This document shows positions 31,643 through 59,447 of a stretch of DNA of 64,000 nt, one piece after another (positions within the stretch are counted from its first letter, which is position 1; each line of letters starts with the position of its first letter). Under the pieces are notes generated by a model. That model did not search any database. It saw only the letters and a program-made list of their open reading frames with translations, and was not told the DNA's origin. Source of the stretch: Nitratiruptor tergarcus DSM 16512 (GTDB lineage: Bacteria; Campylobacterota; Campylobacteria; Campylobacterales; Nitratiruptoraceae); contig NZ_AP026671.1 in NCBI RefSeq assembly GCF_027946175.1, positions 744,001 to 808,000 of the forward strand. The letters are read 5' to 3'. A program made the position numbers and the translations under genes.

Positions 31643-31942
31643 ATGAAAAGAGTATTGGCGATAATAATTACATTGGGTCTTCTTGGGACTAGCTCGGTTG
31701 CAAAGCAAAACAGTGCAAAAACTAAAGACTTTAGTAAAATTAAAGCAGCAAAAATTAAAAAGCTCGAAGCAAAAAAAGAAACTATTGAAAAGCGAATCAA
31801 ATGTATTAAAGATGCAAAAATACGTAAAGAAATCAAAGAGTGTGAGAAGAAATATCCACTGGTCAAAAGAACAAAAAAGATGAAAAAAACAAAGAATCAA
31901 AACAGAAAAAAAATTCAAAACAAAAACACAAAGGCAAAATAA
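31643..31942 (+). CDS. Small secreted lysine-rich protein, unknown
   Basis: 99 residues. A signal peptide (about 1-20, ending SSVAKQ) is followed by a strongly basic helix-forming sequence with many K, E and I residues and two cysteines (CIKDAK, CEKKYP). The C-terminal 25 residues are almost all K, N, Q, R and T. It has its own TATAAT and an excellent AGGAGG ribosome site, so it is very likely expressed. I do not recognise a family. A role in binding acidic surface polymer or DNA is possible but unsupported. Confidence 0.7.
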   Translation: MKRVLAIIITLGLLGTSSVAKQNSAKTKDFSKIKAAKIKKLEAKKETIEKRIKCIKDAKIRKEIKECEKKYPLVKRTKKMKKTKNQNRKKIQNKNTKAK

Positions 31943-32080: not shown

Positions 32081-33627
32081 ATGGAAGAGAAACAACCAGT
32101 ACAACTTATTGTACAAAACTGTCCCACCGAAGAGGATGAGATAGATCTTTGGCAGTTATGGGAAACAATCAAAAAAAATAGAAAAACAATTTATAAAGTA
32201 ACTGCAGCAGTTTTTCTCCTTGCTCTTGTCTATATCTTTATAAAAACTCCACTTTATCAAGCAAAAACAGTTATGCAGATAGGCTACATCGGTGATAAAC
32301 CAATCGAAAAAGCAAATATTGTTGCCCAAAAGATAAAAACAGTTTTTTATGTAGATTCTCCTTTGCAAAAAAAAATAGATAAAGAAGCTTTCATAGAAAG
32401 TGTCAATCCTGTAAAAAAAGTAGATAAACTCATAGACATCACAGCTTATGGCATCTCTAATGAAAAAGCAGTAAATAAAATCAATGAAGTTTTGAAGTAT
32501 GTCAGAAAAGATGAGAAACTCAAAATAGAGCACTTTAAACAAGATATTCAAGCCGAAATAGACAAAACGCAAAGAGATATTGATAAACTTAAAATTGTCG
32601 ATATCAAAAAAATAGATGACCAAATAAATCTGGTTAAAACACACGATATCAAAAAAATAGATGACCAAATCAATCTTTTAAAAACACAAGATATTAAAAA
32701 AATCGATGATAAAATCAATCTTATTAAAACTGTCGATATCAAAAAAATAGATGACCAAATCAATCTTTTAAAAACACAAGATATTAAAAAAATCGATGAT
32801 AAAATCAATCTCATTAAAACTGTCGATATCAAAAAAATAGATGACCAAATCAATCTAGTTAACACACAAAATTTAGCACAGATTAATGACAAAATTACTC
32901 TTTATCAAAAAGAGATAATTCCAAATATTGAAAAGAAAATCCAAATTACTCAAAAACAGATAGAAAAATTTGAAAAAAACATCCAAAACTTGCAAAAGAG
33001 TATCCAAAAAGCTAAAGATAAAGCTTTTATAGCCCTTACTCTTGTTCAAGTATCCAACTATCAAAACATGATCTACTCAAGACAGCTAAAAATCAACGAT
33101 CTTCATCTACAAAAAGAAAAAATTCTCAAAGAAACAATTCCAAATCTCCAAAGACAAAAAGAAAAAATTCTCAAAGAAACAATTCCAAATCTCCAAAGAC
33201 AAAAAGAAAAAATTCTCAAAGAAACAATTCCAAATCTCCAAAGACAAAAAGAAAAAATTCTCAAAGAAACAATTCCAAATCTCCAAAGACAAAAAGAAAA
33301 AATTCTCAAAGAAACAATTCCAAATCTCCAAAGACAAAAAGAAAAAATTCTCAAAGAAACAATTCCAAATCTCCAAAGACAAAAAGAAAAAATTCTCAAA
33401 ATTGAGATTCCAAAATTGCAAGACAGTATTGGATCATTGCGATACAAACTTACTGAAGCCTATATCTCTCCTAGCAAATTTGTAGGTGATATCCAAACCT
33501 TTGACAAACCTGCAAAACCAAAGAAAAAACTCATCTTGGTAGTCGCTCTTGTTACAGGTCTAATACTTGGAGTATTTTTAGTCTTTTTTCTTGAGTTTTT
33601 AAAAAGTGAACCAAAAAAGGAAACTGA

Positions 33628-33631
<4 letters not shown>
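32081..33631 (+). CDS. Wzz-type polysaccharide chain-length/co-polymerase protein with tandem repeats
   Basis: 516 residues. A cytoplasmic N-terminus, TM1 (about 38-58), a very long helical periplasmic region and TM2 (about 482-505, KKKLILVVALVTGLILGVFL, preceded by a DKPAKP proline-rich motif) give the Wzz/PCP layout. The periplasmic part holds two tandem arrays: six units of the DIKKIDDQINLLKTQ type (residues 174-263) and six identical plus one altered unit of QKEKILKETIPNLQR (344-448). Ordinary Wzz proteins are about 330-380 residues, so the arrays account for the extra length. It is translationally coupled to ugd (4-base overlap). Confidence 0.85.
32600..32869 (+). repeat. Tandem repeat A, 6 x 45 bp
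   Basis: Six in-frame 45-bp units coding for DIKKIDDxINLxKTx. Units 2-3 and 4-5 form a 90-bp higher-order duplication, because they alternate between QINLLKTQ and KINLIKTV endings. Confidence 0.95.
33110..33424 (+). repeat. Tandem repeat B, 7 x 45 bp
   Basis: Six consecutive 45-bp units that are identical base for base, coding for QKEKILKETIPNLQR, then one diverged unit (QKEKILKIEIPKLQD). Perfect identity points to very recent expansion, and the number of copies probably differs between strains. Confidence 0.97.
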
Positions 33632-34986
<1,355 letters not shown>

Positions 34987-35524: not shown

Positions 35525-36916
35525 GTTCGCAATTTAGCTTGAAGACTCTTTAGGGACTTTTCAAGATTTCAAGATTTCAAGAATTGAAAAGAGAGAAGAG
35601 AGTTGGATAGACTTCCCAGTGAGAATCAAACAAACAGGAGGAAGCCTATCCATGAGCAATAATAGCAAAAAAGAATTAAAAATATTTAAAGAGATAATGA
35701 CACAGTTTATAGTTGAGGATGATCCACTACTTGCAATGCTAAAATGGATGATGGAGCAGCTGATGCAAATAGAGTCCGAGATGAAAGTTGGAGCTAAAAA
35801 GGGAGAACATAAGAGTGAGAGAAAGAGCTATTTTAGCGGTTATAGACCAAGAAGATTTGATACAAGACTTGGCACTGTGTATTTGATGGTTCCAAAGATC
35901 AGAAAAGGAGGCTATGTTCCCTTTTTCATTACAGAGAGAAAAAGAAGTGAACAGGCTTTAATTGCAATGGTAAAAGAGGCGTATGTGAATGGAGTTTCAA
36001 CAAGAAAAATAGAGCGTTTGGCAAAAGAATTAGGTATTGAGAATATCAGTGCATCCCAAGTATCACAAATTAATAAAGGGCTTGATGAGCAAGTTAAAGA
36101 GTTTCGTAATCGTCCACTCCAAAAGGAGTATCCATTCGTATGGGTGGATGCATTATATGAGAAAGTGAGAGATTATGAAGGTAAAGTTGTTTCTACTGCT
36201 ATTATGATAGCTTATGGTGTAAATTTAGAAGGAAAAAGAGAAATATTGGCAATAGAGCCTTTTATCAATGAAAGCGTAGAAAGCTGGAAAAACTTTTTTA
36301 TCAAGCTTCAAGCAAGAGGATTACAAAAAATAGCATTGCTTATCAGTGATGCACATTTAGGCATTCAAAAAGCTTTCAAAGAAACATTTCTTGGTGCATC
36401 ATGGCAACGGTGTAAAGTCCATTTTATGCGTAATATCCTGGCACATGTTCCCCACAAAGCAAAAGAGAAATTTGCAGCAAAACTAAAAACTGTTTGGCTG
36501 CAAGAGAATAAAAAAGATGCACAGGTAATTGCACAGATGATTATTGAGGAATTTGGTAAAAAGTTTCCCGAAGCAATTGAAACACTTCAAAATAGTTTGG
36601 AGGATTCTTTGCAGTTTTATCACTTTCCACAAATTGATAAAAGGAGAATTAGTTCGACCAATGTACTTGAGAGGATAAACAAGGAAGTCAGAAGAAGATC
36701 TAAAGTTGTCTCCATATTTCCATCAAGAGAATCCTATCTTAGACTCATTGCCACATATCTGATGGAATATACTGAGGACTGGGAAGTGGATAGATGTTAT
36801 ATTCAACCTGACAAGCTTCAGCAGATTATGGAAATTCACAAGGTGCAGCTTCAAAAAGCTGCTTGAATAACTTAAAGTTATCACAAAACAATTTCACTGG
36901 GAAGGAAATTGCGAAC
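35525..36916 (+). mobile_element. IS256-family insertion sequence
   Basis: About 1.39 kb bounded by GTTCGCAATTT at the left and its exact inverse AAATTGCGAAC at the right (11 bp). It encloses one transposase gene. No matching target duplication is seen: ACACTAAA on the left against AAATATTG on the right. That suggests a rearrangement after insertion. The true ends could extend slightly further. Confidence 0.7.
35652..36866 (+). CDS. IS256-family (mutator-type) DDE transposase
   Basis: About 404 residues from the ATG at 35,652, with GGAGG about 10 bases upstream; a GTG at 35,619 is an alternative. The DDE triad can be placed: D in FVWVDALYEK, D in LLISDAHLG and E in NVLERINKEVRRR. The family signature WQRCKVHFMRNIL is present. 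The gene is intact, so the element may still be active. It lies on the plus strand between a broken ATPase gene and remnants of other transposases. Confidence 0.93.
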   Translation: MSNNSKKELKIFKEIMTQFIVEDDPLLAMLKWMMEQLMQIESEMKVGAKKGEHKSERKSYFSGYRPRRFDTRLGTVYLMVPKIRKGGYVPFFITERKRSEQALIAMVKEAYVNGVSTRKIERLAKELGIENISASQVSQINKGLDEQVKEFRNRPLQKEYPFVWVDALYEKVRDYEGKVVSTAIMIAYGVNLEGKREILAIEPFINESVESWKNFFIKLQARGLQKIALLISDAHLGIQKAFKETFLGASWQRCKVHFMRNILAHVPHKAKEKFAAKLKTVWLQENKKDAQVIAQMIIEEFGKKFPEAIETLQNSLEDSLQFYHFPQIDKRRISSTNVLERINKEVRRRSKVVSIFPSRESYLRLIATYLMEYTEDWEVDRCYIQPDKLQQIMEIHKVQLQKAA

Positions 36917-37830: not shown

Positions 37831-38208
37831 TTAACATTCACTCAGATCTTTGTCAAAGCTCAACTTATCATAATTTTGGAGTTTACATTTAGCACATATC
37901 AAAGCATCTACAAAATCAATATTTTTATTTTCTATAATATTTAAATTTTCAAATAGTATTACTTTATCTTTATTCACAACCCCTTCCAAAGAAAGGATGA
38001 TTTTAAGGTCTGCTATTACATCATTTTTAGGTAGTTTATAAAATTTTGTAAGGACAAAAAAGACTTCCATTAAGACTTCACTCAAAATTTCAACTTTTAT
38101 TTTACCTTTCTCAATCTGCTCAAAATATTCAATACTTTTTCTTAGTAATACATCATTATCTCCTACTAAAAATCTAATAATAACATTTGCATCAAGAAGA
38201 TAGACCAT
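37831..38208 (-). CDS. PIN-domain ribonuclease toxin (VapC-like)
   Basis: 125 residues. Acidic PIN residues are visible: D6 in LLDANVIIRFL, E in SEVLMEVFF, D in NIDFVDALICAK and D in LSFDKDLSEC. Such proteins cut RNA and are held in check by the upstream partner. It overlaps the antitoxin gene by 17 bases. Length and motif set are complete. Confidence 0.85.
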   Translation of the reverse strand: MVYLLDANVIIRFLVGDNDVLLRKSIEYFEQIEKGKIKVEILSEVLMEVFFVLTKFYKLPKNDVIADLKIILSLEGVVNKDKVILFENLNIIENKNIDFVDALICAKCKLQNYDKLSFDKDLSEC

Positions 38209-38455
38209 ACTTTTCCTTCATAGCCTCTTGCATCGCTAACTCTTTAATCTTTTGTAATGAAAGATTGGTCTTTTCTATTCTGTTTTTATATTTGCCTGCT
38301 AATTTTTTTACAAACGGCTCTTGTTCTTTTTGCTTTACAGGATAGACTATTGCAAGAATTTCTTTTTTTCTCTTATCTACAATCTTTATCTCTTCAGTTA
38401 TATTTTTAAAAACAGAAATGTTTTTTTGTATCTCACCTATTCCGATGCTTATCAA
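38192..38455 (-). CDS. Antitoxin partner of the PIN toxin
   Basis: 87 residues. The N-terminus (MISIGIGEIQKNISVFKNI then EEIKIVDKRKKEILAIVYPV) looks like a Phd/YefM-type DNA-binding fold, and the C-terminus is a charged helix that would embrace the toxin. The call rests on size, overlap and position just before the PIN gene. It may autoregulate the pair. Confidence 0.75.
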   Translation of the reverse strand: MISIGIGEIQKNISVFKNITEEIKIVDKRKKEILAIVYPVKQKEQEPFVKKLAGKYKNRIEKTNLSLQKIKELAMQEAMKEKYGLSS

Positions 38456-38591
38456 AATTGTCCTTTGTTAAAAGTTGCGATATTTATATATATTTATACT
38501 ATTTTATATAAATAAGATTTTTTTGTCAATTTTTATAACAATTATTAACAAAATTTGTTACCATTTTCTTACCTTTCAAAAAAGAGCAAAT

Positions 38592-38879
38592 ATAAAACAA
38601 AGCTATGTCTATATTATGACGAGCATGAATCATCGTGCCATCTATATCGGAGTAACTAGCAACTTGGTAAAAAGAGTTTACGAACACAAAAACGGCTTGT
38701 GTGACGGATTTACTAAAAGATATCATTGCACAAAACTTGTCTATTTTGAAGTTTTTGACAATATCGATGAAGCCATCAATCGAGAAAAATATCTCAAAGG
38801 CAAGAAAAGAGATTTCAAAATTGCATTGATAGAGAAGCAGAATCCCAAGTGGCGTGATTTGTATGATGACATATTGTAG
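38592..38879 (+). CDS. GIY-YIG endonuclease-domain protein, start codon unclear
   Basis: About 95 residues of the short UPF0213-like type. The GIY-YIG motif is YVYIM...AIYIGVTSNLVKRVYEHK, followed by the conserved E in NREKYLKGKKRDFK. In relatives the start corresponds to M-K-Q-S-Y-V-Y. Here that codon is ATA (38,592), with AAGAG 6 bases before it. The frame is open upstream to an ATG at 38,475 without protein-like sequence, and ATG codons also occur at 38,616 and 38,625. The gene may be weakly expressed or newly damaged. Confidence 0.72.
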   Translation: MKQSYVYIMTSMNHRAIYIGVTSNLVKRVYEHKNGLCDGFTKRYHCTKLVYFEVFDNIDEAINREKYLKGKKRDFKIALIEKQNPKWRDLYDDIL

Positions 38880-38898
38880 ATCTATTGCTATGTTTCTC

Positions 38899-39003
38899 TG
38901 TCATCCTGAGACTTTGTATTCCCGTCATCCTGAGGCGTCAGCAGAAGGATCTATCCTATCTGCCGATCATTTATAGATCTTTCGCTACGCTCATGATGAC
39001 GAG
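38899..39003. repeat. REP-like hairpin repeat 1
   Basis: Two right-facing copies (GTCATCCTGAG) and one inverted copy (AGATCTTTCGCTACGCTCATGATGAC) lie between the GIY-YIG gene and the DUF4143 ATPase. The outer arms can pair. Confidence 0.85.
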
Positions 39004-39010
39004 ACATTAT

Positions 39011-40294
39011 TCACTTCTCTTCACCCTCCAAGAGCCATCTCCACAAAGGTTTGAGAAATATCTTGAAACCTTGTGATTCGATGACTCTATCTTCATCTTT
39101 TGTGATCAGACATCCACTTTCACTACCTACATATCGCATTCCTTCAATCAACGATTGCACTTCCCTTTCCAAAGTTTTCTTATCTTTCACATCATAAATG
39201 ACATTAACAAGCATTTTGCGACTAGGGATATAAAAATCCACCTCTCTTTTGCTTTTATAGTAGTAAATTTGTGAAAATCTTCTTCGTAAATGCAAAAAAA
39301 CTACATTCTCATACAATTTAGAATAATCTGGCGAAAAGGTAGTATCGTAAATATAGTTGAATCCATTATCTACGATAAACACCTTTTTGGGATTCCTCTG
39401 CTCTTCTTTGACAGAACTTTTGAAAATAGATGTAATAAAACAGGTATACGCATCGTTTAAATAAGCAAAATATTCAAAAAGCGTGTCTTTGGAGAGTCTA
39501 TATCCCATTGATTTGAAGTCGTTATAGAGTTTGGTAAAACTCACAAGTGTCGCTGGGTTGGAAAAAAGATATTTTATGAGAAGCTTCAAAAGTGCGAGAT
39601 TTTTGACTTTGTAGCGCTCTATGATATCCCTATACACTATCAAATCCACATAATCACGCAAAATTCTCGATTGGATATCTTCATCCTCTTCCAATACAAT
39701 TTCAGGAAATCCTCCTTTAACAACATAAATTTGCAATGCATTTTTTATATGAGAGAGACTTTTAGAGGAGTGGAGATTGATATCGATCTGCCTGAAGCGA
39801 AGGTATTCTTGAAAACTAAGTGGAAAAACTTCATAACTTATCGTCCTTCCCCTAAGTGATGTGGCAATCTCTTTTGACAAAAGTTTTGAGGATGAACCAG
39901 TTATAACAATATTTGCATTCAAAGTATCATGAATACGCCTAACAAATTTCTCCCAATAGGCAATTTCTTGAATCTCATCGAAAAAGAGGTAAATCTTCTC
40001 GTCTCGCTTTTGTGGATAGAGCTCAAAATAGGCTTCTATAAGTTTGTCAAAATCTTTATAATTCATTCCTATCAAACAATCATCTTCAAAATTTATATAA
40101 AGGATATTTTGTTTCAATCCTTTCTTTTTGAGTTTGTTTATCATTTCGTAAAGTAAATAGGTTTTACCCGACCTTCGCACGCCTATTAAAGAGACAATTT
40201 TCGAAGTTTCTATTGGAAGTGTATATGCTCTAGGTATGATTTCAATCTCTTTTTCTTGAAAATCAACAATGAGTCTTTTGAAGAGTTCTTTCAT
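39011..40294 (-). CDS. AAA_14/DUF4143 ATP-binding protein
   Basis: 427 residues. Walker A is GVRRSGKTYLLYEM, Walker B IYLFFDEIQEI, and VITGSSSKLLSKEIATSLRGR is the family signature. The C-terminal DUF4143 region has a PD-(D/E)xK-like start (KREVDFYIPS), but the position of the E-x-K pair reads NVIYDV, so nuclease activity is doubtful. Such ATPases are common accessory genes in archaea and thermophiles, with no settled role. A perfect palindrome sits directly before the ATG. Confidence 0.88.
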   Translation of the reverse strand: MKELFKRLIVDFQEKEIEIIPRAYTLPIETSKIVSLIGVRRSGKTYLLYEMINKLKKKGLKQNILYINFEDDCLIGMNYKDFDKLIEAYFELYPQKRDEKIYLFFDEIQEIAYWEKFVRRIHDTLNANIVITGSSSKLLSKEIATSLRGRTISYEVFPLSFQEYLRFRQIDINLHSSKSLSHIKNALQIYVVKGGFPEIVLEEDEDIQSRILRDYVDLIVYRDIIERYKVKNLALLKLLIKYLFSNPATLVSFTKLYNDFKSMGYRLSKDTLFEYFAYLNDAYTCFITSIFKSSVKEEQRNPKKVFIVDNGFNYIYDTTFSPDYSKLYENVVFLHLRRRFSQIYYYKSKREVDFYIPSRKMLVNVIYDVKDKKTLEREVQSLIEGMRYVGSESGCLITKDEDRVIESQGFKIFLKPLWRWLLEGEEK

Positions 40295-40318
40295 ATTATC
40301 CCTTTCTAAAGGGATAAT
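40295..40318. promoter_or_regulatory. Perfect palindrome abutting the DUF4143 ATPase start
   Basis: Arms ATTATCCCTTT and AAAGGGATAAT (11 bp, no mismatch) flank a 2-base centre and end at the base next to the ATG. On the minus-strand transcript the second arm contains the AAAGGGA ribosome site, so an RNA hairpin would hide it. Alternatively it is a DNA operator. Confidence 0.6.
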
Positions 40319-40418
40319 TTTACTATATTTTGTCCTCTTATATAAGGATAAATAGCAATATCAATCCCATTGTCACAAGACTCCATCATCATGAGGAAGC
40401 ACCGTAACTGAAGTATTT

Positions 40419-40584
40419 CCCGTCATCCTGAGGCGTCAGCCGAAGGATCTAATTTATCAACCATTCATCACAGATCTTTCGCTACGCTCAAGATGACGAG
40501 TAGCAGTCATTCTGAGGGAGCGGGAGTAACCGAAGGATCTACGTTGATTTTCCGATCACCCTGAGCCATTGGCGAAGAATCTAT
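40419..40584. repeat. REP-like hairpin repeats 2 (double)
   Basis: Two successive units: GTCATCCTGAGGCGTCAGCC...AGATGACGA, then GTCATTCTGAGGGAGC...GAATCTATG. They fill the gap between the ATPase and the HEPN gene. Confidence 0.85.
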
Positions 40585-40586
40585 GA

Positions 40587-41027
40587 TCATTTATTTTTTA
40601 TCTCTTGCAGATATCGCAATGTATTTTCCATAATCTCGATCAATTTTTCACTATACATCAAAACTTCATCGAATATCTCGATAAGATTTTCTTCAATATA
40701 CTCATGCACTATATCATTACGCAAATCTTTCATTATTCTTAACTCATCGATATCTTCAAAAAACCCGCGTTTATGAGCATTGTTTACAACATCAATGAGT
40801 GTTCCGGGATTTTCAAATTCATAAATATCTATGGAGCGAAATATCTTTCTGATAAGAAAATCGATTCCTCTGCTATATCTGGCACACAAAGTTTCAAATT
40901 TACCAAATTCTTCTGGAGTGTAACAATTTTTAATCCCAATATTTTTGCATTCATTGACAGAATAGCGTATCCAAAAGAGCTGTTTTTCAATGAGTCTTTT
41001 GTCTTCTAAAAGCTTTTCATACATCAT
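40587..41027 (-). CDS. HEPN-domain toxin (HepT-like)
   Basis: 146 residues, all helical. The RX4H ribonuclease motif is LRNDIVHEY near residue 107. HepT proteins of this type cut RNA and are kept silent by an MNT partner that attaches AMP to the Tyr after the His (type VII system). The 4-base overlap with the MNT gene upstream supports this. The HEPN subfamily differs from the other HEPN genes in this window. Confidence 0.83.
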   Translation of the reverse strand: MMYEKLLEDKRLIEKQLFWIRYSVNECKNIGIKNCYTPEEFGKFETLCARYSRGIDFLIRKIFRSIDIYEFENPGTLIDVVNNAHKRGFFEDIDELRIMKDLRNDIVHEYIEENLIEIFDEVLMYSEKLIEIMENTLRYLQEIKNK

Positions 41028-41308
41028 AACTCGACTGCTTGCTTACGTATCAGTTCGATAAAAGCATTTTTATTTCTTTTATTATCAAGAACAATATCGA
41101 TTTTTTGCTCTCCAAAATGTTTATAAAACTCCACCCGCAAAGCTCTTAAATCTTTTCTTGTGATATTCTCTCCTACTATCAAAAGATCTATATCCCCTCC
41201 TCTTTTGCTATCATCTGTCCTACTTCCAAAGAGGTAAATCTTCGCATTAGGAGAGATAGAGTAAAGCTTCTCTTTTAAAACCTTTATCTCTTTTTCGCTA
41301 AGCCGCAT
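41024..41308 (-). CDS. MNT-domain nucleotidyltransferase antitoxin (MntA-like)
   Basis: 94 residues, minimal nucleotidyltransferase. The GSRX(n)DxD motif reads IYLFGSRTDDSKRGGDIDLLIV, with a third acidic residue in KIDIVLDNKR. It likely AMPylates the HEPN partner. Start MRLSEKEI. Confidence 0.87.
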   Translation of the reverse strand: MRLSEKEIKVLKEKLYSISPNAKIYLFGSRTDDSKRGGDIDLLIVGENITRKDLRALRVEFYKHFGEQKIDIVLDNKRNKNAFIELIRKQAVEL

Positions 41309-44462: not shown

Positions 44463-47177
44463 ATGCAAAAATTTATCAAACTTTTTTTCTATTTCGTTCT
44501 TTTTACGCAAGGCTGGATTATTCTCAGTGGTCTTTTCAACCTCCCCTTTTGGTGGGTTATAATAGCTTCTTATATAGGATTTTTGGCATATCTCTATCCT
44601 TTGCAAGTTCTTTACTTTTTACTCATCGTTATGCCTATATTTGGCTCGAGGCCTCCCGATACGCAGGCGCATTTTCTCTATTTTTTGGCAGCCACTATCA
44701 TCATAGGGCTCTACAGCAACCTCTATAAAAACGAAAGACTTTGCAAAAGATTTTGGACTAAAATTATAGAGCCAAATGCGATTACCCTTTTTGTAGCTCT
44801 TTTTGCAGTCGTATCGCTTCTTAGCCTCATAGGACTTCCAATCCTTGGAGCCATCAAGCATAGTATCACAGAAGACCCCCTCTATATCATCAAACAGCTC
44901 TTGCCAGTGGGAGAAACGACACTCTTTTACTCCATCTCTTCACAGATTTTCTTATTCCAAGCAATGCTCATAGGTCTCTATATTTATGGCATCACCAAAC
45001 CTTCTAACCAGCTTCAGATCTTTAAAAATATTCTACTTTCACTCGTAGCCGGATGGTTTTTGGTCATCGTTTTTGGATATCTGGACTTTTTTGGAATTTT
45101 TGAACTCTCTCATTTCAGACCCGATGACACCGCTACAAGATTTGTCTCATTTTTTCCAAATTCCACATGGACAGCTCAGTATCTCTCTCTTATGATGCCT
45201 CTACTTGCAGTCATATTGCTCTATGTTCGCAAAACCTGGTATGCGATCGTGACACTTGTCCTTTTGCTTATCATTGGGGAAGTTGGGCTCATATTGGCAA
45301 TGGAGAGAGGTGCATGGATCACCTATCCCCCTATTCTTTTTATCATCTGGGTGATGGTCTACTACATCTTTGCAAAAACGAAAGATCCATTTATAGAGCT
45401 CAAAACATTTTTGCGCAAATATTGGCTCAAAGTCTTTATCACCATTCCTCTCACAGTCTCTCTCTCCGTCCTCATCGTCTATGGGATCAAGCATATCAAT
45501 CAGCAAAACTTTGCTAAAAGTATTATTCAAGCCACAAGTAAAGCCAAGCGTATCACACAAGCCAATGACAGGCTCAAGCACTGGCCTCCAGCGTTCAAGC
45601 TCTATAGTGAAAATCCTCTCTTTGGGGGGGGAGGAGATAGCTTTGGCTGGCAATACAAAGTCTACTACTATCAAAAAGATGCCAAATGGCACGATGACAA
45701 AACAAATACTCTATCACTTGGACAATTTGGCACCGCGCATAATATTTATCTTGAGACATTGGTAGGCAAAGGAATATTTGGACTCATTTTCCTCATAGCC
45801 CTGTTCTTTTCACTCTTTTACAAACTGATTAAAAAAGAGCTTACCCAGCCGCAACTTGAAGTCTCCATCATAGGACTTATCATCTTTGCTTCACTCCTTG
45901 CTGCCTTTATCTACGGCAATGTTCAGGTCATTACATATACCCAGCCAGTAGCCATCATCTTTTGGCTTATGGTCTTCATGGCAGCTGGACTCACGCATAG
46001 CTACAGCTTCACTCCAGCTATCCGGATAAGATTTGCACAAATCTTACGCTATACTATTCTCTTGATGCTCTTGCTACTCCCTTTTCATATTGCCAATATC
46101 TCTTTTATCAAAGATTTTGTCATAGCAAAATTTACACAAGTTTTCCCTGCTCTTCAACAGCACTCATCTCTTATCATTTCCACAGCTATTTGGCTCAGTG
46201 CTCTGGGAGTGCTCATCTCTTTTCTCATGCATAGACATGTCATCAGACAAAGCCTGAGCCAAGGATTTCTTGTGGATGAGCTTACCGACAAGCCTCAGCT
46301 TTTTCACGAAGCCCCAACTCCAAGAGCCGGTGGTATTGGTATATATCTGACTAATCTCCTTGCCATATTCAACCCCATAGGCTGGAAATTTTTGCTGGCA
46401 AGCTTTCCAGCATTTTTTGCCGGACTTATGGATGATTTTAGCTCCATCCCTCCGAAAGTGAGACTTGTCTTTCAGGTCATTTCAGCGAGTTTAGCGGTAT
46501 TTTTGCTAAATGCTGTGATAGATAGCATTGGTTTTGGTATCCAGATCCCATATTGGCTTGGAGCAGTGCTTAGCATCATAGCTATCACCGGTGTGATCAA
46601 CGCTATCAATATCATCGATGGATTTAATGGTTTGGCTGGAGGCTTTTCTCTTCTTGCATTTTTGTCATTAGGATATGTTGCTTTCAAAGTAGATGATATG
46701 GCACTACTGGAGCTCATCATCATCAATATCGCTGCTCTCATAGGATTTCTCGCCCTCAACTTCCCAAGAGGCAAGATCTTCTTAGGAGATGGTGGGGCAT
46801 TTTTCTTGGGATTTGCTTTAGCTACAATTGCATTATTGATTTATCATATGCACCCAAAAGAAGTATCTCAATGGTATCCTCTAGGTTTGCTTATATATCC
46901 GGTATTTGAAGTTTTATTTAGTATATACCGCAAGAAATATTTGAGAGAAACATCTCCTTTTTTGCCAGATAGGTTACATTTTCATATGTTAGTAAATAAA
47001 AGGATTACTCGAAATAATCCACATACATCGCTCTACATTCTCAAAAGAGTTGCAATTTTTACACTCTTTGCGACAATGTTTTATTGGTATGATTTGGCAC
47101 AGATTTTAATTATTTTGATTTTTTGTTTGCTATATATTAGGTTATATAAAAAGATTGTTTTATTTTATTATAATTGA
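44463..47177 (+). CDS. Fusion: O-antigen ligase/polymerase-like half + WecA/MraY-like phosphoglycosyltransferase half
   Basis: 904 residues in one open frame. Residues 1 to about 590 form a multi-span membrane protein with a large periplasmic loop. That loop ends in AHNIYLETLVGKGIFGL near 425-441, the Wzy_C/WaaL hallmark. From about 600 the sequence is a polyprenyl-phosphate sugar-phosphate transferase: PRAGGIGIYL (~620), FAGLMDD (~658), NAINIIDGFNGLAGG (~713), GKIFLGDGGAFF (~772) and DRLHFHM (~838). The second half would load the first sugar on undecaprenyl phosphate; the first would polymerise or transfer finished glycan. An EpsG-like polymerase occurs at 50,592, so ligase is my preferred reading of half one. 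Confidence 0.88.
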   Translation: MQKFIKLFFYFVLFTQGWIILSGLFNLPFWWVIIASYIGFLAYLYPLQVLYFLLIVMPIFGSRPPDTQAHFLYFLAATIIIGLYSNLYKNERLCKRFWTKIIEPNAITLFVALFAVVSLLSLIGLPILGAIKHSITEDPLYIIKQLLPVGETTLFYSISSQIFLFQAMLIGLYIYGITKPSNQLQIFKNILLSLVAGWFLVIVFGYLDFFGIFELSHFRPDDTATRFVSFFPNSTWTAQYLSLMMPLLAVILLYVRKTWYAIVTLVLLLIIGEVGLILAMERGAWITYPPILFIIWVMVYYIFAKTKDPFIELKTFLRKYWLKVFITIPLTVSLSVLIVYGIKHINQQNFAKSIIQATSKAKRITQANDRLKHWPPAFKLYSENPLFGGGGDSFGWQYKVYYYQKDAKWHDDKTNTLSLGQFGTAHNIYLETLVGKGIFGLIFLIALFFSLFYKLIKKELTQPQLEVSIIGLIIFASLLAAFIYGNVQVITYTQPVAIIFWLMVFMAAGLTHSYSFTPAIRIRFAQILRYTILLMLLLLPFHIANISFIKDFVIAKFTQVFPALQQHSSLIISTAIWLSALGVLISFLMHRHVIRQSLSQGFLVDELTDKPQLFHEAPTPRAGGIGIYLTNLLAIFNPIGWKFLLASFPAFFAGLMDDFSSIPPKVRLVFQVISASLAVFLLNAVIDSIGFGIQIPYWLGAVLSIIAITGVINAINIIDGFNGLAGGFSLLAFLSLGYVAFKVDDMALLELIIINIAALIGFLALNFPRGKIFLGDGGAFFLGFALATIALLIYHMHPKEVSQWYPLGLLIYPVFEVLFSIYRKKYLRETSPFLPDRLHFHMLVNKRITRNNPHTSLYILKRVAIFTLFATMFYWYDLAQILIILIFCLLYIRLYKKIVLFYYN

Positions 47178-50591: not shown

Positions 50592-51623
50592 TTAATAAAA
50601 TACATTCCATATTTTGTATGGATAATTTTCAGGTATACCAATAAATAACATTAAAATTGATGTCGACCAAATTACAATTAATGTAAATAAAATTATTTTA
50701 GAGGTTTTATTTCTTATCAATTCAAGCAACATGGGAAACATTATTATTTCCAAAACTCTAAAAAACTGGTTAATTTTCGTTGCAAATGCTAAATTGAATG
50801 AAAAAATAATATATATAAAATATCCAAGTAAATAAATATAGAAGTAATATTTTAATTTATGAGATTTTTTTATTAAATCATAATAATATATAAATGGAAG
50901 TATGAGCAACAACCTTTGTAACACTCTAATGAAATTAATTTTTTCATCAAATCCTTTAGCATAATCAATAAATTTCATTTGTATATATGATGGAAAATAA
51001 TCAAAAAGATATTTACTTACATCAAAGAATAAAAATAACAAACTAATATATAGAGCTGCTATTATAACTTTTTTTGGAATAATTAATTTTCTTGGAATAA
51101 AATAAGCAAATAAAATCAATATACCAGTAATATGAATTGATACAGCAATAACTGTGGCCAATAATACATGGGAGATTTTGCGCTTATACATATTATTTAA
51201 TAAAGATAAAAATATACCCATTACCAAGCCCTGTCTTAGACCACTATATATAGCTGTTACAAGATATGTATTATAAAAAATGAAAAATGCAAAGTAAGTA
51301 TATTTTGTTTGTAGCACTATTCCTTTATAATAAAGCAATAATGAAATTAAACCTATTATAAAAAAAATACACAGGTAATTTAAATCTAAACTTTTTAGCG
51401 CTAAAACTAAATATTTAAATCCTGGTTCTATAAGCGGATAATCACTTATATCCTGTATGTTTGTAAAAATATTTTTATATGGAATATAATCTTTTCCAAC
51501 CTCATAGCGAAAACCTGCAATCATAATAAACAAAATAATAATTGGTAAAAATGGAATAAATTTTTTTGTAAAAGTTTGTAGTATCGATAATATTAAAATA
51601 AATCCATACATGATAAAATACAT
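50592..51623 (-). CDS. EpsG-family (Wzy-like) polysaccharide polymerase
   Basis: 343 residues with about ten membrane spans. The EpsG signatures are AGFRYEVGKDYIPYKNIF and AIYSGLRQGLVMGIFLSL. It would polymerise lipid-linked repeat units on the periplasmic side. With the Wzx flippase and the Wzz-type protein at 32,081 it completes a Wzx/Wzy system. Confidence 0.86.
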   Translation of the reverse strand: MYFIMYGFILILSILQTFTKKFIPFLPIIILFIMIAGFRYEVGKDYIPYKNIFTNIQDISDYPLIEPGFKYLVLALKSLDLNYLCIFFIIGLISLLLYYKGIVLQTKYTYFAFFIFYNTYLVTAIYSGLRQGLVMGIFLSLLNNMYKRKISHVLLATVIAVSIHITGILILFAYFIPRKLIIPKKVIIAALYISLLFLFFDVSKYLFDYFPSYIQMKFIDYAKGFDEKINFIRVLQRLLLILPFIYYYDLIKKSHKLKYYFYIYLLGYFIYIIFSFNLAFATKINQFFRVLEIIMFPMLLELIRNKTSKIILFTLIVIWSTSILMLFIGIPENYPYKIWNVFY

Positions 51624-51699: not shown

Positions 51700-53016
51700 T
51701 TAGATATGAGCCTCGTTGTTTTTCACTTTACTAAGTATAACTCTGGCTTGAATAGGCCCTGCAATAGCAAAAAAAGATAATGATAAAATAGTAGCTAACA
51801 CAACTCCGGCATTACCCATATGAAAATTTTTCACAAAAAAGATCGATAATGGAATATTCAATATAGCACCTATCAGTAATGTATAAAATTGTACTTTAAT
51901 AGCATTGATAGCATTTAGAAAAAATGCATAATTATTGTTCCATGCGACAATAACAACATATATAGTCATCATCATGACCAAGCTTTTCGAAATCTGAATC
52001 TGATCACCTATCCAAATAGATATTAACTGTTCACTAAATACATTTAATGTTATAGCTACACCAGCCAATACAAATACAAAAAGTCCCATTTTTTTTAAAC
52101 TACTGATTATCCAATAAATTTCTTTTTTTGTATATGCTTCCGTATATGCTGACCATAGCGGAGCATTCACTATCCCATGTAAAACTTGGACGATACTAAA
52201 CAATCTATATACAATATCGTATGAAGTTACATATTTTGGGCCTAGTAGCTGGGTAATAATTATTTTATCAGACAGCATGATAAATATAAATACCATTTGT
52301 AAAGCGAAAAAGGATATGCCGACATTCATAAGCTTTCCCATTATATTCTTTTGAAAGTTTTTCATCGAGGGAATTAAATGCCTATTTTTTGTAAAAAAGA
52401 TAATAGTCAGCACCAGTTTACTAGTAATCAGAGCAACTCCGTAAACTATAACAATAGATTCAATACTGTGATATCCAAAGACATAAAGATATAATAATAA
52501 ACTGCATAATAATATATAAAATAAAAATTGTTCAAATTCATTCAATGCATTTTTTTGTATAGCGAAAATAAATTGTTTTACGAAACTGATAATAAAATGT
52601 AAAAACACAAAGCCGAAAAGCAGCACAACAATTATTTTTAGTTGATCTTGCATGAGAAGCGTAGTGTTGAAGATTGATTGTAAATTTGCAAATGATGAAA
52701 ATATATAAACAAATAAAAATAGCAAAATTGAAATAATAGTTATAGAAACATATCCTGTCATAATAATTTCTTTTGCTTCTATTGTATTATTTAAGCTCAG
52801 TGCTTCAGTCAAATAATTTTTTATACCATTACCTAATCCAAAATCAAAAAATACAACCCATGTAACAATTGAAAGAAGGGTTGCCCATACACCATAAAGT
52901 TCACTTCCGAGTATTTTTACTTGAAAAGAGATTGAAATATAATAAAATATAAATGTAAGTATTTTAAATAAAAATGACCATTTAATTTGCCGAAATATAT
53001 TTCGGTTTCTATCCAT
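51700..53016 (-). CDS. Wzx-type polysaccharide flippase
   Basis: About 438 residues with 12-14 predicted spans (MATE-like Polysacc_synt family). FQVKILGSELYGVWATLLSI and FDFGLGNGIKNYLTEAL are typical of the N-terminal half. I prefer the ATG at 53,016 (MDRNRNIFRQIKWSFLFK), because the longer frame up to 53,055 overlaps the fcl fragment. It flips undecaprenyl-linked repeat units across the inner membrane. Confidence 0.87.
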   Translation of the reverse strand: MDRNRNIFRQIKWSFLFKILTFIFYYISISFQVKILGSELYGVWATLLSIVTWVVFFDFGLGNGIKNYLTEALSLNNTIEAKEIIMTGYVSITIISILLFLFVYIFSSFANLQSIFNTTLLMQDQLKIIVVLLFGFVFLHFIISFVKQFIFAIQKNALNEFEQFLFYILLCSLLLYLYVFGYHSIESIVIVYGVALITSKLVLTIIFFTKNRHLIPSMKNFQKNIMGKLMNVGISFFALQMVFIFIMLSDKIIITQLLGPKYVTSYDIVYRLFSIVQVLHGIVNAPLWSAYTEAYTKKEIYWIISSLKKMGLFVFVLAGVAITLNVFSEQLISIWIGDQIQISKSLVMMMTIYVVIVAWNNNYAFFLNAINAIKVQFYTLLIGAILNIPLSIFFVKNFHMGNAGVVLATILSLSFFAIAGPIQARVILSKVKNNEAHI

Positions 53017-53023
53017 ATATATA

Positions 53024-53272
53024 CTACTCATAAGCTTTTTGAATCCCTTCTTCAAGCTCCACGTTGTGGCTCCAGCCTAGAAGAATATGAATTTTACTCA
53101 CATCTAAAACCTTATACATTGTCCCCATCTGGTTTTTGGGTAATGAAATAAAATTAACCTTTAATTTAACAGTATCTTTTATAAGTTCAGATAATTCTTT
53201 CATACTCAAATCTTTTCCTCTTCCGATTTTAATATGTGTGTTACGTCGTTCATGATTCGTGAGCAGGGAATT
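53024..53272 (-). pseudogene. 3'-terminal fragment of a second GDP-fucose synthase gene
   Basis: The frame reads LLTNHERRNTHIKIGRGKDL then SMKELSELIKDTVKLKVNFI, QMGTMYKVLDVSKIHI and GWSHNVELEEGIQKAYE. This lines up with the last 80 or so residues of the intact fcl gene at 55,135 (NEIRNTHINIGTGKDISIKE, DGTMRKVTDVTKLHNLGW) but is clearly diverged. The rest of the gene is absent. It marks an old recombination end next to wzx. Confidence 0.82.
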
Positions 53273-59035: not shown

Positions 59036-59447
59036 CTAGAGCAAATTCTCTTTTTCAATACCCACTATCTCTAAAACTTGCTCAAATATATCATTTGCAA
59101 ATTCATAAAACTCTTTTTGCATCTTCGAGTGACGGTTTGCCATCTGGTAATAATCCCAAATCTCCTGGATATCTTGCATCCATATAAAGCTCATTGATCT
59201 TGAACATAGTCTTTTCATCTTCGATTTTAATGTCATTTTCTATAAGAGAATATAAGGCAAAAAGGTTATGCTTTTTAGGGATATTCTGCCTTTTATATTC
59301 GATTAAGGCTTTAAATGATTTTTCTATTGCCTGCTGAGCATGGAAAGAAGCTATAGGAGTGAGATGTTCATTACCCAATAAATATTCTATAGCTTGGATA
59401 TCTAAATAAACAGCTTTCAACCATTCTTTGGCTATTTGCGAAGCCAT
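59036..59447 (-). pseudogene. HEPN-domain gene with one-base frameshift
   Basis: MASQIAKEWLKAVYLDIQAI, then FHAQQAIEKSFKALIEYKRQ, is the PF05168-type HEPN start. After LPDGKPSLEDAK the frame breaks at a five-A run (five T on the plus strand, 59,114-59,118), where the paralog at 59,919 has four. The rest (EFYEFANDIFEQVLEIVGIE) is intact in the other frame and almost identical to that paralog. One base would restore the gene, so it may be phase-variable, freshly dead, or a sequencing slip. Confidence 0.83.

Follow-up and report, generated by a model that had tools for sequence, protein, structure and literature searches.

The wzz gene and its surroundings

The stretch of the Nitratiruptor tergarcus DSM 16512 genome analyzed here (64,000 nucleotides of NZ_AP026671.1, hereafter the window) encodes a chain-length determinant with two internal tandem arrays and, downstream of it, a set of glycan genes (Table 1). 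The protein is a Wzz, or polysaccharide co-polymerase (PCP), without a kinase. Both of its Pfam matches, to PF02706 (2.4e-10, 41 bits against a curated cut-off of 25.5) and GNVR (6.2e-7, 29.7 bits against 27.7), lie above the curated cut-offs, which bears out the Wzz-type assignment made in an earlier note on this DNA, and wzz is the sole PF02706 match of the whole genome. The chain stops after the predicted second membrane helix (TM2), and it has neither a Pfam or NCBIfam match to a tyrosine-kinase domain nor a Pfam match to the kinase and methyltransferase domains of the WbdD type. The segment DKPAKPKK (residues 475-482) and a GxxxG motif (G493-xxx-G497) are kept in relatives, and in an AlphaFold2 (AF2) model the two membrane segments, both predicted with low confidence, flank a helical hairpin.

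Table 1. Features of the window, with positions counted from its first nucleotide
Feature	Position	Strand	Remarks
wzz	32081..33631	+	Wzz/PCP chain-length determinant, 516 aa; intact single frame, without kinase domain
First membrane helix	32192..32245	+	~residues 38-55; hydrophobic run after EEDEIDL motif; AF2 helix 34-55, low confidence
Array A, six 15-residue modules	32600..32869	+	Residues 174-263; ascending arm (predicted)
Degenerate seventh A module NLAQINDKITLYQKE	32870..32914	+	Directly after the six A units; nearest relative (G010) has one too
Hairpin turn	33011..33019	+	Residues 311-313; sole break between the long helices (AF2); same motif turns in G015
Tip-proximal motif VQVSNYQNMI	33044..33073	+	Conserved (family alignment); landmark for arm measurement
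Array B, six units QKEKILKETIPNLQR	33110..33379	+	DNA-identical 45-bp units; residues 344-433; descending arm (predicted)
Altered seventh B module QKEKILKIEIPKLQD	33380..33424	+	Conserved in G010, nearly so in G015
Proline-rich segment DKPAKPKKK	33503..33529	+	Precedes second membrane helix; alignable in all relatives
Second membrane helix	33524..33604	+	GxxxG (G493, G497); AF2 helix 482-508, low confidence
UDP-sugar dehydrogenase	33628..34986	+	PF03721 1.2e-67; start overlaps wzz stop (ATGA)
O-antigen ligase (Wzy_C) + WecA-like (Glycos_transf_4) domains	44463..47177	+	Single 904-aa frame
EpsG-family protein, likely Wzy polymerase	50592..51623	-	PF14897 2.5e-40
Polysacc_synt/MatE protein, likely Wzx flippase	51700..53055	-	PF01943 7.7e-9

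Because of the start/stop overlap, wzz and the UDP-sugar dehydrogenase gene likely form one operon. With this adjacent gene and the likely Wzx and Wzy genes 17-20 kb away, wzz is linked to a Wzx/Wzy pathway. A counterpart of the fused Wzy_C/WecA-like frame (906 aa) also lies near wzz in G010 (L043:5826-8543). Several other genes surround the locus. Just upstream of wzz is a lysine-rich 99-aa frame with a signal-like start and no Pfam match (31643-31942, +), and a Mutator-family transposase gene (35619-36866, +) separates the wzz-dehydrogenase pair from the remaining glycan genes. Small defence-like genes cluster beside the glycan locus (37834-41308), encoding a PIN-domain protein with a small partner, a GIY-YIG protein, and a nucleotidyltransferase accompanied by a possible HEPN-like partner; another HEPN protein is encoded at 59106-59447.

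Two arrays on one predicted hairpin

The coordinates and unit counts proposed earlier for the two arrays proved correct to the base, and the unit coordinates confirm that both have the same 15-residue (45-bp) period. Array A reads, in order, DIKKIDDQINLVKTH, ...LLKTQ, ...KINLIKTV, ...LLKTQ, ...KINLIKTV and ...LVNTQ, and the degenerate seventh module is followed by an eighth-like unit, IIPNIEKKIQITQKQ. In array A, unit 4 repeats the DNA of unit 2 exactly, and unit 5 that of unit 3 with one base changed, so that the array contains a 90-bp higher-order repeat. Tandem Repeats Finder scored array A at 351-437 and array B at 584 (6.5 copies, 100% match, 292 bp), with no array above 66 in the window outside wzz. 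Among 200 genomes of the class, the B unit was found in no gene other than the wzz genes of the window and of G010.

AF2 predicted two very long helices in the window protein, at residues 128-310 and 314-462. This single-chain model was built on an alignment of two sequences only (mean pLDDT 68.7, pTM 0.40); pLDDT is ~83-96 from residue 180 to 450, whereas prediction is poor for the N-terminal region and the membrane segments, and the model does not resolve the membrane-proximal domain. When array A, including its seventh unit (residues 174-278), is mirrored about the tip, it faces residues 345-449. Array B (344-448) is thus approximately its mirror image, which places the arrays opposite each other on two strands. 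Hence, A and B are predicted to lie on opposite strands of a single antiparallel helical hairpin, equidistant from its tip. The model of the orthologue from a Campylobacterales metagenome bin (G015) turns at the same motif, between helices 129-296 and 300-448; helix 2 has 149 residues in both proteins, and helix 1 has 168 in G015 versus 183 in the window. A structure search with the window model returned generic antiparallel hairpins centered on the same turn, such as a chemoreceptor (2ch7; Z 15.7, rmsd 7.0 over 301) and the CHMP4B hairpin (4abm; rmsd 0.8 over 75 residues around the tip), and no Wzz structures were among the matches listed.

The proline in each B unit had been regarded as unusual for a rigid helix. 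The predicted helix runs unbroken through it, and in 22 relatives a proline occupies the matching module position in 24% of arm A and 33% of arm B modules, so it is not an oddity of array B.

Matched arm lengths across Campylobacterota

An alignment of Campylobacterota Wzz proteins contains gaps of entire 15-residue blocks on each of the arms. The arms were measured with the tip motif (Y327) as a common landmark: arm A is the distance between it and the conserved N127, and arm B the distance between it and P480. Relatives in which the tip motif could not be aligned were excluded from scoring. Across 42 proteins, the lengths of the two arms were almost perfectly correlated (r 0.996, slope 0.997). 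Arm B measured 48, 63, 78, 93, 108, 123, 138 or 153 residues (48+15n) in nearly all of them, and four members of a short form had an arm B of 41. Arm A exceeded arm B by 29-34 residues in 41/42 proteins, the exception being the window protein (47), which is among the tallest found.

This balance rule was written down before held-out proteins were fetched from two other families and a plasmid. All 34 scoreable held-out proteins obeyed it (one more was not scoreable), although the set is not fully independent, because its families also occur in the first set. In the joint set, the difference was 29-35 in 73/74 proteins, again with the window protein as the only exception, and two proteins added later both obeyed the rule. 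The span from N127 to P480, a measure independent of the tip, stepped by ~30 residues within each lineage class (130, 160, 216-220, 245-250, 277, 307 and 337), and a half-step (353) was seen in the window protein only. The single plasmid relative, on Aliarcobacter cibarius pACIB (29%), also obeyed the ladder. It is a lone, balanced Wzz with five B modules, and no glycosyltransferase is annotated in its vicinity (L153, NZ_CP043858.1 80814-98022). A viral source was considered and rejected, with no relative found in viral contigs.

The coupling persisted when relatedness was taken into account on trees built without the arms, with independent contrasts giving r 0.992 for 42 proteins and 0.986 for 79. 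Sixteen branch-disjoint pairs differed in arm B, and one (L097/L098) was discarded since the tip of L098 could not be aligned (both have a span of 152). In 14 of the 15 usable pairs the number of modules changed equally on both arms; the single unequal pair was the window protein and G010 (five A versus four B modules). At least 20 changes in module number are required on the tree. Together, these comparisons of protein sequences show that the predicted hairpin changes length by whole modules, and that in nearly all relatives scored a change on one arm is matched on the other.

One module type on both arms

The relationship between the modules of the two arms was assessed in 22 proteins, a set without the window protein and its two nearest relatives. 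The autocorrelation of hydrophobicity was 0.41 for arm A and 0.34 for arm B at lag 15, and ≤0.06 at other lags from 10 to 20. The consensus modules, approximately xI[P/K]xIxxxIxxLxxx in A and xI[P/K]xLxxxxxxILxx in B, carry proline at the same position, and the log-odds correlation between A and B modules was 0.60 at the best phase (next best, 0.47). One relative (L132) has a two-module duplication that matches on both arms. The earlier description of A and B as unrelated thus holds for the two window units compared directly, but not for the diverged modules of both arms, which have a common consensus. Judging from these similarities, each of the two window arrays is probably a re-expanded version of the same ancient type of module. 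That A and B are unrelated, independent arrays is ruled out by the coupling of their lengths and by the consensus common to diverged relatives.

Recent copy-number change and an unpaired module

The expectation that copy number changes was upheld between species, based on one genome per species. Within the genus of the window, the nearest relative of the window protein, that of G010 (overall identity ~90%), carries 1+1 A and 2+1 B modules, compared with 6+1 and 6+1 in the window, and is hence shorter by five A and four B modules. In the G015 protein (74%), arm A totals six units and arm B has 6+1. The three species share the same B peptide. Between G015 and the window, each B unit shows 7-9 synonymous differences and no nonsynonymous one; in G015, the six identical B peptides are encoded by five DNA versions. 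The retention of one peptide despite synonymous-only differences in DNA indicates purifying selection, and the uniform DNA of array B in the window indicates a recent expansion.

The window protein carries one A module without a B partner, the sole unmatched step found among 74 proteins. This implies either that arm balance is not absolute or that the assembly is wrong. The unpaired module may be a transient state left by recent slippage: array A steps most easily by two modules (the 90-bp repeat) and array B by one (45 bp), so that a mismatch of one module is a natural intermediate. Alternatively, array B could have lost a copy during assembly, in which case the two arms would really be in balance (A 200, B 168). 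Runs of identical repeat units are a classic site of assembly collapse, six identical 45-bp B units are prone to it, and the single unbalanced protein of the 74 is also the one whose array is long and free of mismatches (292 bp). However, the assembly is close to finished (two contigs, 99.99% complete), and four other proteins reach the same maximal B arm of 153. An assembly error seems to us possible but somewhat less likely than slippage. It bears on the imbalance in the window only, not on the ladder.

Comparison with known systems

Like the window protein, the enterobacterial PCP-1 proteins WzzB, FepE and WzzE have a Wzz Pfam domain and a proline-rich segment and GxxxG at TM2, with Wzx/Wzy genes near. 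They also have two membrane helices and a long helical periplasmic part, as is predicted for the window protein, with low confidence for the membrane segments. These proteins form a bell of ~100 angstroms, whereas the arms of the window-type hairpin are predicted to be up to about twice as long. Paired 15-residue modules in varying number characterize Campylobacterota Wzz; the literature examined for WzzB, FepE and WzzE makes no mention of repeat modules. The best solved match of the family profile is Wzc of Escherichia coli (PCP-2a; 2.8e-25), which is alike in its N- and C-terminal segments but has a tyrosine-kinase domain that the window protein lacks. Non-heptad coiled coils (11- and 15-residue) offer a parallel in periodicity, with 15 residues over four turns, although the modules described here are predicted to sit in a membrane-anchored antiparallel hairpin. 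The hydrophobic period of 15 residues seen in the 22 relatives is one that a right-handed coiled coil, as suggested earlier, would also show. In WbdD of E. coli O9a, the length of a coiled coil sets O-antigen length, and insertions or truncations shift the modal length (PMC5082667). WbdD is unrelated in protein and topology: it is a kinase/methyltransferase that terminates chains in an ABC-transporter pathway, and its coiled coil is a parallel trimer. Literature searches on Campylobacter/Arcobacter and on hairpins turned up no account of variation in module length among the titles and abstracts listed, and one on the paired-repeat Wzz theme itself found nothing.

Module number and polymer length

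On balance, we favor the view that this is a kinase-less Wzz with a long hairpin of 15-residue modules, whose number would set the height of a barrel and hence its volume and the modal polymer length. The periplasmic part would be a very long antiparallel hairpin with A as the ascending and B as the descending strand, and the matching of modules between the arms, seen in nearly all relatives scored, keeps tip and base in register. By analogy with WzzB and FepE, neighboring hairpins would assemble into a barrel that encloses the glycan as it grows. The barrel would then gain ~22 angstroms in height, and hence volume, with each module pair, and the linked Wzx/Wzy system would make a polymer whose modal length is set by module number.

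Tuning of glycan length by modules fits published work on these homologs. The interior volumes of FepE and WzzB (143,033 and 39,571 cubic angstroms, with capacities of 95 and 26 repeat units, respectively) match modal O-antigen length, and the difference between them comes from width rather than height (PMC13161533). If the lumen measures 30-35 angstroms as in WzzB (PMC7809406) and stays open, ring size is constant, a module is 22.5 angstroms high and a hydrated sugar takes up 300 cubic angstroms, we estimate that one module pair would add ~18,000 cubic angstroms, or 60 sugars. A bolder version, which we regard as possible though somewhat doubtful, is that Campylobacterota Wzz proteins are digital rulers. 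Glycan length would be an integer count of paired modules (0 to 7 on the B arm), each adding barrel capacity for an estimated ~60 sugars, with slippage on two dissimilar arrays kept equal by selection and a ceiling near the width of the periplasm.

Two other readings of module number seem improbable to us. Modules might determine reach rather than volume, extending the hairpin across the periplasm to a peptidoglycan or outer-membrane partner, with module number following envelope width. With a rise of 1.5 angstroms per residue, the 149 residues of helix 2 in the window protein would span ~224 angstroms, compared with ~100 angstroms, or half as much, for the WzzB bell (PMC7809406). The longest B arm is 153 in three families (f1, f7 and f8) and none is longer, as a physical ceiling would give. 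The best solved relative by profile, Wzc, forms a complex with the outer-membrane protein Wza (PMC12881504). However, B modules vary within a genus (3 to 7 in that of the window; 5, 6 and 7 in genus g10), and one periplasm width does not explain Wzz proteins of two lengths in one genome (G049, G336, G346 and G412).

The other reading, to which we likewise give little credence, is neutral slippage under a fold constraint, whereby selection only purges mismatched arms and module number has no specific function. Any antiparallel hairpin would give matched arms, the DNA-identical B units show recent slippage, and the window protein tolerates one unmatched module. Strong purifying selection on the module peptide (0 nonsynonymous changes) argues against it, as does the fixed module number of some lineages while others vary (B 63 in 23 proteins, and B 108 in every long-arm f3 Wzz of the 42-protein set).

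How Wzz proteins control polymer length is a long-standing open question, and the newest proposal, that the interior volume of the co-polymerase sets length, rests on two proteins that differ in many ways (PMC13161533). The Campylobacterota proteins provide a natural ladder of one Wzz architecture, with hairpins that differ by whole modules, sometimes by one module pair between close relatives, and glycan lengths compared along it would be a direct test of height and volume against other models. The arrays also offer a clear example of compensatory repeat evolution within one molecule, in which the numbers of two different DNA repeats appear to be equalized by the fold.

Some genomes of family f7 encode two Wzz proteins of different module number (G412, G049, G252, G256, G336 and G346). 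The two genes are side by side in G412 (C1:807730-809489, L118; B 78 and 63), an arrangement that recalls WzzB plus FepE, and such pairs would predict bimodal glycan lengths. Elsewhere, the membrane-proximal domain of the G016 Wzz (L011:1057-1923) contains a run of approximately nine Ser-Asn dipeptides. In G421 (C1:600611-603186), the wzz match is split at the hairpin into two pieces ~1.4 kb apart, possibly by an insertion element.
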